A stretch of DNA of 32,976 nt from an uncultured Bacteroidota bacterium (lineage in GTDB: Bacteria; Bacteroidota; Bacteroidia; 2-12-FULL-35-15): contig CAIWDF010000278.1 in the NCBI GenBank assembly GCA_903911435.1, forward strand, positions 1 through 32,976. Reading direction: 5' to 3'. Position numbers and translations under genes: made by a program. This document shows positions 1-32,976 of the stretch, one piece after another. Within the stretch, counting starts at the first letter, position 1. Every line of letters begins with the position of its first letter. The notes beneath the pieces were generated by a model. The model did no database searches and was not told where the DNA came from. It saw only the letters and a program-made list of their open reading frames with translations.

Positions 1-360
1 TCCTTTACAACACTTTTTAAGTTCTCTATGTGAAAAGTTTTTTCCTTGGCATTACTTTTTATGTTCTCCATATGAAAGGTTTTTTCCTTAGCATTACTTT
101 TTATGTTCTGTATGTGAAAGGTTTTTTCCTTGGCATCACTTTTTGTGTTCTCTAGGTGAAAGGTTTTTTCCTTATCATCACTTTTCGTGTTCTCTAGGTG
201 AAAAGTTTTTTCCTTATCATCACTTTTCGTGTTCTGTATGTGAAAAGTTTTTTCCTTAGCATTACTTTTTAAGTTCTCTAGGTGTTAGGTCTTTCCTTAT
301 CATCACTTTTTGTGTTCTCTATGTGAAAAGTTTTTTCCTTAACAACACTTTTCTTCTTCT
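1..360. repeat. 42-bp tandem repeat array (array A), truncated by window start
   Basis: The landmark GTTCTCT/GTTCTGT recurs at 21, 63, 105, 147, 189, 231, 273 and 314, so the unit is 42 bp with one 41-bp unit, and a decayed copy follows near 355. Each unit reads roughly GTTCTCTAtGTGAAAaGTTT, then TTCCTTnnCATcACTTTTTn. The two halves resemble each other (both start TTC and end in a T run), so the unit is probably a diverged 21-bp dimer. No plausible gene covers it. The array runs off the left edge. Confidence 0.93.
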
Positions 361-708
361 AGGCATCTCTTTTCCGAATATGTACGTAATTTATCGAAAA
401 AAGTGGCCTAACTGAAGTTTTCTACCTAGAAGTAAAGCTAGCCTCATACCTTTATATATAAGTACACCTTGTTTTTTTCATTCATCGTTCGTAAACAATT
501 TTGAGTTTTTCTTTTCTCTTATCGGAACCTAGTAGCCAGTGCGCATTTAATAAATTGTAAATATAAATAAGCAATTGTGCCCGATATTGTTAAGGATTCA
601 CTTCCGAAGGATGAAACTCTTATCCATAAATACACCCTTTCGTACTTTTATATCTTCAATAAGTACCTTTTTTCAGTTTATCTTCACTTTAATATTACAT
701 GGCATCAA
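361..708. other. Gene-free spacer between arrays A and B
   Basis: About 350 bp of AT-rich sequence with no convincing gene. Open frames starting at a TTG (575) and a GTG (577) run into the downstream repeat, but they stay open because the repeat length is a multiple of three. I see no terminator, tRNA or clear promoter here. Confidence 0.6.
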
Positions 709-981
709 GACCTTGCTACACGGAAACGTGACCTTGCTGCACGGAATGATGACGTTGCCACACGGAAACGTGACCTTGCCATACGGAATGATGACGTTGC
801 CGTACGGAAAGGTGACGTTGCCGTACGGAATGATGACGTTGCCGTACGGAATGATGACGTTGCTACACGGAAAGGTGACGTTGCTACACGGAATGATGAC
901 GTTGCTACACGGAATGATGACGTTGCTACACGGAATGATGACGTTGCTACACGGAATGATGACGTTGCCGTGTGGAAAGAG
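709..981. repeat. 21-bp tandem repeat array (array B), 13 units
   Basis: Thirteen units of exactly 21 bp start at 709, 730, 751 and so on to 961. The consensus is GACGTTGC, then five variable bases (TACAC, CGTAC), then GGAATGAT. The first units alternate between AAACGT and AATGAT tails, a 42-bp higher-order period like that of array A; later units are homogenised to AATGAT. Units with CCGTACGG contain an 8-bp palindrome. Two forward frames and one reverse frame are open through it simultaneously, as expected of a stop-free repeat divisible by three, so I do not call a gene. Confidence 0.95.
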
Positions 982-1215
982 GACAATTCCGACTGATATT
1001 TTGGCAAGGGCGCCCTGTTTTATAGCCCCGACAAATGACTAGATAGCTAGTCTGCCAAAGGTTTTAATGAATTTGGCCCTTTTTCGAGGAAAGTTGGGCA
1101 CATTTGGTATCAACCAATAATTAATTCAAAACACTAAAACCTTAATTACTCAGATTCTTTTTAGTATTTCTTAGTACCTTATCGGTGAGAAAATCTACCC
1201 TAAAACTGCCTCAGA
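982..1215. other. Gene-free spacer between arrays B and the 11-bp repeats
   Basis: About 230 bp following array B. It includes the palindrome GGGCGCCC near 1009. No gene, terminator or recognisable promoter was found. Confidence 0.55.
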
Positions 1216-13274: not shown

Positions 13275-13916
13275 TTACTCTACATAAGTAGGTGTGTTGC
13301 AACTTTCTTTTCGCGAAGCGAATTCATATTTTAGCCCAACACGTAATTCAAAATCTTTATTGAATACATGTAATTCGGGAGATACATAAGCTGGCATCAC
13401 ATCAGGATTGTAAAATCCTTCGACAAAGAATTTGATATTAAAATAATTTACAAACTCTACACCACCACCTACCGCTGCACTTACATGCAATGGCAAAAAA
13501 TTGCCAACCACAGCAGGTGACGAAACGCCTTGAACAAGATTATACTCTAACCGAGGCCCTAGGAGCACATAAGGAATGATGCTGAACATTTCGTAACGCA
13601 GTTTTAGGTAATTGTTCCAACTTAAATATTGAATTTGATTTGGGTAGTTGCCTTCGGGTTGTTGGTCAACCGAACCTTTTTGATTGTATTGAATTTCGGT
13701 AACCCACCGAACGTAATCGCGTGTAAAAAACTCACCAAAAATGGAAGCATTGAATCCGAACACATATTTTTTTCGTGAAATATCAGGTGGGTCAATCAAA
13801 AAGAATTTCTGATTGGCAGCAGTTGCACCGGCTGTTATAGCAATGCTATTGAGCTTTTGTGCTTTTGCCTGAAAAACAAAACAAAGCATGATACCAATCG
13901 ACATTATTTTTTTCAT
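13275..13916 (-). CDS. Predicted outer-membrane beta-barrel protein
   Basis: A 213-residue exported protein. A signal peptide (MKKIMSIGIMLCFVFQAKAQ) ends at an AKA-Q site. Alternating strands follow (SIAITAGATAAN, YVFGFNASIFGEFFTR, VRWVTEIQYNQKG, NYLKLRYEMFS, PYVLLGPRLEYNL, PLHVSAAVGGGVEF, IKFFVEGFYNPD), closing with FELRVGLKYEF; the pattern fits PorT-like barrels. I chose ATG 13916 for the lysine-led signal peptide; 13931 would lie upstream of a TATCTTTG element (complement of 13921-13928). That element sits only four bases before ATG 13916, so the transcript would be leaderless or the element is fortuitous. It is not a close copy of the 11907 barrel. Confidence 0.76.
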   Translation of the reverse strand: MKKIMSIGIMLCFVFQAKAQKLNSIAITAGATAANQKFFLIDPPDISRKKYVFGFNASIFGEFFTRDYVRWVTEIQYNQKGSVDQQPEGNYPNQIQYLSWNNYLKLRYEMFSIIPYVLLGPRLEYNLVQGVSSPAVVGNFLPLHVSAAVGGGVEFVNYFNIKFFVEGFYNPDVMPAYVSPELHVFNKDFELRVGLKYEFASRKESCNTPTYVE

Positions 13917-13967
13917 CCTCCAAAGATACATTATTAATAAATTCCAATTTCAGTTTATGATTTTGTA

Positions 13968-14345
13968 AAACATTCCTGCTTTTTCTTGAAACCTTCCTAC
14001 TTTTTGGCCAAACCTTAAAACTTATTTTCCAAAGTTCCCTAACTTTTCATCAAAGTTCCCTCCTTTTTGTCCAAAGTTCCCTAACTTTTTGAGAAAGTTC
14101 CCAATGTTTTGCGCATTCTTCGGAACTTTTAGTTCATTCTTCCGAACATTTGGTTCATTCTTCCGAACAATCGATTCAATCTTCGGAACTTTAGCATAAA
14201 TGTTCCGAACTTTAAGCAAAATGTTCCAAGGTTTGATGAAAACTTAGGGAACTTTAGCGAAAACTTACCGAACTCTGGATTTAAAGGAGTAAGGTTTCAT
14301 GAAAAAGGACTAAGGTTTCGGACAAAAAGAACAGCTTTTGAAGTT
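13968..14345. repeat. Degenerate 21-bp repeat array (array C), about 18 units
   Basis: From 13968 to about 14345 the sequence falls into successive 21-bp units. Units from 14031 read AAAGTTCCCTAACTTTT plus four bases; from 14115, ATTCTTCGGAACTTTTAGTT plus one base; from 14199, AATGTTCCGAACTTTAAGC plus two; later units read AAAGGAGTAAGGTTTCATG plus two. A GTTC/GAAC core keeps its phase while the rest drifts through subfamilies. A 65-codon frame on the minus strand (14022-14219) is a product of the repeat. The array fills nearly the whole gap between the barrel and GyrI-like genes. Confidence 0.88.
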
Positions 14346-14375: not shown

Positions 14376-14383
14376 TAGTTTTG
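14376..14383 (+). promoter_or_regulatory. -7 promoter element (TAGTTTTG) for GyrI-like gene
   Basis: A perfect TAnnTTTG lies 23 bp before the TTG start at 14407, directly after array C. A TTTG at 14346-14349 is 26 bp upstream, slightly long for a -33 element. Confidence 0.5.
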
Positions 14384-32617: not shown

Positions 32618-32645
32618 CTAACAACTAACAACCAACAACCAAATA
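32618..32645. repeat. Heptamer repeat (CTAACAA)n, second block
   Basis: Four 7-bp units: CTAACAA, CTAACAA, CCAACAA and CCAAATA. The same unit appears at 1405-1439, so it is a recurrent intergenic element in this genome. Confidence 0.72.
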
Positions 32646-32701
32646 GGGGCAGGCAGTTTCTCACTCTTCGTAATCGACAAGTATACACATAGAAAAACAC
32701 A

Positions 32702-32817
32702 CAGTTTGGCGTAGCGTCTCGCTACGTCATATACAACAAGTCCTCTGGACTTTTATTTTTAGTTTAAAGGCGGGACCCCTTGTTAAGCCGGACGTAGCGG
32801 GACACTATGCCCAACGG
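32702..32817. repeat. Inverted pair of hairpin elements (BIME-like)
   Basis: The minus strand of 32702-32728 and the plus strand of 32791-32817 match at 22 of 27 positions (GACGTAGCGnGACnCTAnGC, then CnAACnG). The first copy is a perfect 7-bp hairpin, CGTAGCG / CGCTACG around TCT (32710-32726); the second is a decayed hairpin. Between them lies another hairpin, AAGTCC / GGACTT around TCT (32738-32752), followed by TTATTTTT. The pattern resembles paired REP elements. No RAYT transposase is in the window. Confidence 0.72.
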
Positions 32818-32902
32818 GGGGAAAAACAAAAAACAAGGAGGGCTATTTTTTTCATCCATCAAATATACACCATAATTTTACTTCAAAATTGGAAAAAGTA
32901 TA

Positions 32903-32976
32903 CGGAACGCGAACGAAAAGATGCGGAACGAGAACGAAACCATGGTTTGCTTGAATGAAACCATGGTTTGGGTGAA
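32903..32976. repeat. 21-bp repeat array (array D), continuing past the window
   Basis: Units start at 32903, 32924, 32945 and 32966. The first two begin CGGAACGCGAACGAAAAG and CGGAACGAGAACGAAACC; the last two begin GTTTGCTTGAATG and GTTTGGGTGAA. The perfect palindrome AAACCATGGTTT occurs twice, 21 bp apart (32937-32948, 32958-32969). The array is cut by the window end. Confidence 0.82.

Follow-up and report, generated by a model that had tools for sequence, protein, structure and literature searches.

The 21-bp tandem array studied here was found to be one of hundreds of intergenic arrays in its genome, and the change of unit type along it proved to be a mirror inversion of its units within an unbroken 21-bp register, two features that go beyond the initial annotation of this DNA. 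Across the class the 21-bp lattice is accompanied by depletion of insertions and deletions (indels), by enrichment of dyad symmetry, by copying of arrays between loci and by restriction to one clade. The window, which is the whole stretch of DNA analysed (32,976 nucleotides), is the entire contig C278 of a 4.19 Mb Bacteroidota genome in 312 contigs, the nearest named relatives of which are mostly freshwater and groundwater MAGs.

The initial annotation had placed an array of about 18 units in phase at 13968-14345, and this was correct in coordinates (the start being moved to 13965), in unit number and in register (Table 1). Self-identity of the target at lags of 21, 42 and 63 was 0.633, 0.57 and 0.57 respectively, compared to a lag-21 identity of 0.270 +- 0.025 (maximum 0.36) in 1000 dinucleotide shuffles, and adjacent units were separated by 96 mismatches with no indel required. 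When all target units were scored with a matrix built from units 2-7, the forward motif of the first seven units was followed by symmetric intermediates, and units 13-17 then scored +5 to +21 bits as the reverse complement and -5 to -13 bits in the forward orientation, all at shift 0. The drift through subfamilies that had been described earlier is therefore real as a change of unit type but not as random drift; it is an ordered orientation flip (inversion) with the 21-bp dyad register kept. Conserved positions of the target unit are symmetric (outer A4, A5 / T17, T18; inner T9 / A13), with linker positions 1-3 and 19-21 varying freely. As forward units are succeeded by symmetric intermediates and then by reversed units, the target is an imperfect palindrome which folds end to end: the 21 matches between its inverted ends exceed the null 95% quantile of 17, and the predicted minimum free energy (MFE) is -105.4 kcal/mol for the + strand (z -6.2) and -109.1 for the - strand (z -4.5). 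A palindrome test on the single-unit consensus gave no more than a borderline signal for the target (p 0.07), as that consensus is blurred by the presence of both orientations in one array.

Table 1. Positions of the target array, its parts, its flanking features and the other arrays of the window.
Feature	Position	Strand	Basis
Whole 21-bp array, one register, 18-19 units	13965..14345	.	lag-21 identity; 0 unit-to-unit gap events
Units 1-7, forward, AAAGTTCCCTAACTTTT / AAACCTTCCTACTTTTT types	13965..14111	+	forward matrix 12 to 26 bits
Units 8-12, symmetric intermediates CTTCGGAAC / GTTCCGAAC	14112..14216	.	both orientations weak or near-equal
Units 13-17, motif of units 1-7 reversed, shift 0	14217..14321	-	matrix scores per orientation
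Left end of inverted pair, CTTTTTCTTGAAACCTTCCTACTT	13979..14002	+	21/24 matches to reverse complement of right end
Right end of inverted pair	14284..14307	-	pairs with 13979..14002
Single long imperfect hairpin, predicted, if transcribed or single-stranded	13976..14334	.	MFE
Left flanking gene, 218 aa, genus-conserved, without Pfam match	13275..13931	-	
Right flanking gene, GyrI-like small-molecule-binding protein, 158 aa	14407..14883	+	PF06445 E 1.1e-20
Candidate -7 promoter box TATCTTTG of left gene	13921..13928	-	TAnnTTTG pattern match
Candidate -7 promoter box TAGTTTTG of right gene	14376..14383	+	TAnnTTTG pattern match
Second array, 42-bp period, contig start	1..360	.	TRF; lag-21 core of 30 bp only
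Third array, 21-bp period, unit GACGTTGCTACACGGAATGAT	668..1032	.	TRF
Fourth array, 21-bp period, truncated by contig end	32872..32976	.	TRF

The target sits between two divergent genes, with both candidate TAnnTTTG boxes just outside the array (chance alone would give about 0.7 matches over the 600 bp scanned). The GyrI-like neighbour is absent from most genomes of the same genus, and the sequence upstream of the 218-aa gene was unrelated to that of the target in the relatives examined. No tRNA genes were found by a tRNA search and no Rfam family matched the target. Elsewhere in the window, a dispersed palindromic intergenic repeat of the GTAGCG...CTACG type was observed at 32700-32830, with an 85-bp, 92% match beside the C55 array and a weaker match beside the C275 array; it looks like a separate repeat family. 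Sequence similar to TATATATAAGTA adjoins four arrays (window 440-470, L026, C55 and C275) and is nearly absent from other intergenic DNA, and heptanucleotide repeats (CTAACAA / AACAACC) were seen at 1405-1436 and 32620-32642 and elsewhere in the genome (C90:257-330).

Sampling of 830 kb of the same genome, approximately one fifth of it, revealed 58 arrays with a lag of 21, 42 or 63, a density of about 70 per Mb that extrapolates to some 290 arrays per genome. Among the TRF periods of intergenic tandem repeats in these 830 kb, 21 occurred 25 times, 42 occurred 16 times and 22 three times, with any other period found only once or twice. The unit sequences mostly differed between arrays, with 26 of about 4465 pairwise unit-matrix comparisons above the 0.999 null and about 14 related array pairs within the sampled fifth. 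All but one of 76 arrays were intergenic, and their placement (14 divergent, 28 tandem and 4 convergent) tracked intergenic length, which accounts for it with no preference for promoter contexts shown. The 21-bp lattice was also present in six sampled sister species (G004, G005, G012, G014, G015 and the L079 species), and no 21- or 42-bp noncoding array was found in 921 kb from other species of the genus. In the one tree built, of the 218-aa protein, the array clade was monophyletic: the six rows with arrays that were included, among them the target's own genome, formed one group with support 95/94.

Several further arrays were observed in passing. A more distant groundwater Bacteroidota carries a 21-bp array (L111:1-525) with a sharp mid-array switch between two unit types, and a minor family of 22-bp arrays in the target's own genome (C80:32879-33423; L134:1-402; L173:41-162) shares a core like CGGTTTATGAGA or a variant of it. 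A called gene was missing on one side of 29 of the 76 arrays, and most of these 29 were at or near a contig end. Many contigs start or end inside 21- or 42-bp arrays (for example window 1-360 and 32872-32976; C24:1-276; C275:47398-47636), which makes the arrays a probable cause of much of the fragmentation of the assembly.

Loss of identity with retained phase had been regarded in the initial annotation as unusual for a neutrally decaying repeat, and the modelling of indels against substitutions that was proposed there bore this out. Unit-to-unit alignment of 55 arrays gave 2750 mismatches and only 24 gap events, a number reproduced in simulations by about 0.01 indels per substitution; a rate of 0.1 gave 233. 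In non-array intergenic alignments of the same genus the ratio was 0.168 overall (0.11-0.18 in species of the array clade), such that the arrays, at about 0.01 compared to about 0.15 in ordinary intergenic DNA, are depleted in indels about tenfold. Detection of the arrays should not by itself select against indels, as a single indel upsets only one lag-21 unit comparison. An orthologous array compared between G005 and the L079 species contained 52 substitutions and no indels, with indels in both flanks, and the target aligned with a paralogue in C175 over 287 bp without a gap at 71% identity, a pair into which gapped BLAST introduces compensating gaps. These data support a phase constraint on the arrays, and the persistence of the same 21-letter spacing despite unrelated or mirror-reversed letters suggests that it is the spacing itself, and not the sequence, which is preserved.

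A further indication came from 15 arrays with a period of 42 only, in which lag-21 identity (0.238) was at background, meaning that the two halves of the unit are unrelated. Dyad symmetry (p<0.05) was significant in 12 of these 15, the array at the start of the window being among the remaining three, and in 15 of the 58 21-bp arrays, including the target. As one dyad in a 42-bp period entails another at a distance of exactly 21 bp, two different short palindromes alternate every 21 bp in such arrays, exemplified in C55 by ATTCCG-CT-CGGAAT and CCAATTGG. Mean arm complementarity in the 42-bp arrays was 0.6-0.8 at 1-4 bp from both axes, decreased further out and was about 0.3 in the centre itself, which is the shape of a dimer site or of a small hairpin. 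Within single palindromes, 57 compensated double changes were counted in the arms compared to 39.0 +- 4.6 after shuffling, a count that ignores kinship between units and is taken as supporting evidence only.

The alternative that the arrays are RNA hairpin elements, transcribed as periodic stem-loops for mRNA stability, termination or protein binding, would account for the predicted folding of the target into a single hairpin and for the 58 of 138 strand tests in which arrays folded better than all 24 period- and dinucleotide-preserving shuffles (5.5 expected). However, in roughly half of the 21-bp arrays the predicted folding did not surpass that of shuffles, the number of compensatory changes separating the target from its homologue was not above chance (4 vs 3.3), and there was no Rfam match. 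The palindrome arms also show no excess of G-U over A-C: with 118 A-C and 89 G-T mismatches, A-C is no rarer than G-T, which points to DNA rather than RNA, and we regard the RNA explanation as quite improbable. A coding heptad repeat, in which phase would be kept by a protein with seven codons per 21 bp, draws on 21 being a multiple of 3 and on a stop-free frame in 32 of 71 arrays. It is refuted for the target, which has stops in all six frames and no codon signal, and is next to inconceivable for the class, where codon-position variance was below permutation (0.0029 vs 0.0042) and where such coding would not favour 21 and 42 over 18 or 24. Intrinsically curved, phased A-tract DNA was likewise rejected, as curvature predicted with wedge parameters did not exceed that of shuffled units (mean z 0.11 +- 0.11; 75 arrays).

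Arrays were found to have been copied between unrelated loci as discrete, sharp-edged blocks. In two such pairs (C275:17213-17502 with L176:9823-10133, and C304:53583-53891 with C202:19802-20130) a single 21-bp unit, along with one or two gaps of one base, sets the copies apart, and beyond the edges similarity is absent or much weaker. In the two copies of a two-array locus in C134 and C55, the spacer hardly differs and the units of one array do, indicating that array sequence turns over quickly and spacing does not. The two-array locus duplicated at L026:1-960 and L124:18560-19420 has a nearly identical spacer, with the first array rebuilt from a different unit.

The strongest rival to the phased lattice that we favour builds on such copying and turnover, and holds that the arrays are a minisatellite lineage, either neutral or selfish, in which an old 21-bp repeat gains and loses whole units and is copied from one locus to another through recombination, with hairpin-templated mutation (quasi-palindrome correction) symmetrising the units, so that the period would be inherited and not selected. 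The rebuilt arrays beside near-identical spacers, the copies at unrelated loci that differ by single 21-bp units, the related pairs in the sampled fifth, placement by intergenic length and monophyly of the array clade in the one tree all agree with it, and it accounts for spread and turnover. It does not account for the shortage of indels, as unit turnover alone should not yield a roughly tenfold depletion relative to substitutions, nor for the 42-bp arrays, in which dyads lie 21 bp apart even where the two halves are unrelated, and we consider it somewhat unlikely.

The sharp-edged copies, together with the inverted ends in the target and a few other arrays, might instead suggest that the arrays are the body of MITE-like, non-autonomous mobile elements with a transposase acting in trans, for which BrickBuilt of Porphyromonas gingivalis, a MITE with a 23-nt minisatellite, is a precedent (PMC4596501). 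However, inverted ends exceeded the 95% null in only 7 of 55 arrays, comparison of flank k-mers gave no common leader or tail, and unit sequences are not common to the loci as they would be in a MITE family. Matches to Y1_Tnp do not follow the arrays either, being 2, 2, 6, 2, 5 and 2 in array-bearing G000, G004, G005, G012, G014 and G015 and 11, 3, 1, 1 and 0 in array-free G016, G019, G010, G009 and G011. Mobility of this type appears improbable and, like the RNA hairpins, is weaker than the lattice and minisatellite explanations.

The explanation that we tentatively prefer is that the arrays are lattices for a dimeric DNA-binding protein, occupied as a cooperative row of sites on one helical face. 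The target would then belong to a class of intergenic DNA lattices that occurs throughout the genome and is confined to one clade. What these lattices conserve would be a 21-bp spacing, equal to two helical turns, and in many of them each 21-bp step would also be the centre of a short palindrome. A putative dimer, either of nucleoid type or from a family of regulators, would fill each 21-bp slot, with all slots facing the same side of the helix and with cooperative binding along the array. The sequence and orientation of a slot would be free to change since a dimer reads a dyad, and an indel would break the row. We infer the protein, its cooperativity and a consequence for the flanking promoters, which may be silencing, looping or insulation. 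This explanation is supported by the 21/42 period quantum in 830 kb with mostly unrelated units, by the dyad axis every 21 bp implied by the dyad-symmetric 42-bp arrays with unrelated halves, by the indel depletion, by the flip of the target motif in a kept register and by the arm covariation. Against it stand the 43 of 58 21-bp arrays without a significant dyad, the lack of a promoter preference, the few arrays of period 22, the absence of any sign of selection for intrinsic curvature and the copy number of HU-family proteins, which did not separate array-bearing from array-free species.

A broader version, which we think rather unlikely, is a sequence-agnostic chromosomal lattice, where selection would act on nothing but the two-turn spacing and local dyad symmetry, both read by a putative architectural or regulatory protein; if true, it would resemble a chromatin-like phasing signal in bacteria. 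Repeats are usually recognised by a common sequence, and here hundreds of loci have spacing alone in common. If selection is the cause, the arrays would offer a natural system for asking whether helical phasing serves bacteria as a code in itself, and if mutation is the cause, they would point to a process, so far undescribed, that proceeds in steps of 21 bp.

The literature searched, a limited collection, did not describe any intergenic lattice with a fixed step of 21 bp, and the closest known kinds are the MITE-borne minisatellites such as BrickBuilt and the REP/BIME elements, to neither of which the arrays belong. BrickBuilt and PgRS/464 of P. gingivalis are intergenic 23- and 41-nt minisatellites inside MITEs, and resemble the present arrays in occurring in Bacteroidota, in intergenic DNA and at several loci per genome, in their predicted long stem-loops and in their periods, which are close to two and four helical turns (PMC4596501). 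BrickBuilt, however, has 19 copies with one common unit sequence and with a leader and tail bearing terminal inverted repeats (PMC4596501). The arrays here share with it a spacer-free, intergenic tandem repeat, but differ in their density, in the absence of one genome-wide unit sequence (by the unit-matrix comparisons above) and in the absence of a common leader and tail, with no common flank k-mer set and few inverted ends.

REP/BIME elements are likewise extragenic palindromes with regular spacing, alternating orientation and high copy number, and the REPs within a genome are alike in sequence and associated with RAYT genes (PMC2817692). Palindromic extragenic units in alternating orientation were seen in 12 of 15 42-bp arrays and in 15 of 58 21-bp arrays. 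The arrays have neither a common REP sequence nor a link to RAYT (Y1) transposases; their sequences vary from one array to the next, their step is a constant 21 bp and Y1 counts do not track them. Freshwater Planctomycetota are comparable as freshwater lineages with many intergenic tandem repeats, for which, unlike the 21 bp here, no fixed period is reported in the portion of that account considered (PMC9426551).

The arrays do have the fixed whole-turn spacing and the intolerance of indels that are expected of phased arrays bound by protein. In phased multi-site operators and nucleoid-protein arrays, dyad sites are set at whole helical turns and so lie on one face of the DNA. Each such array that is known to us has one recognisable site sequence, whereas the arrays described here have their spacing in common and not their sequence.
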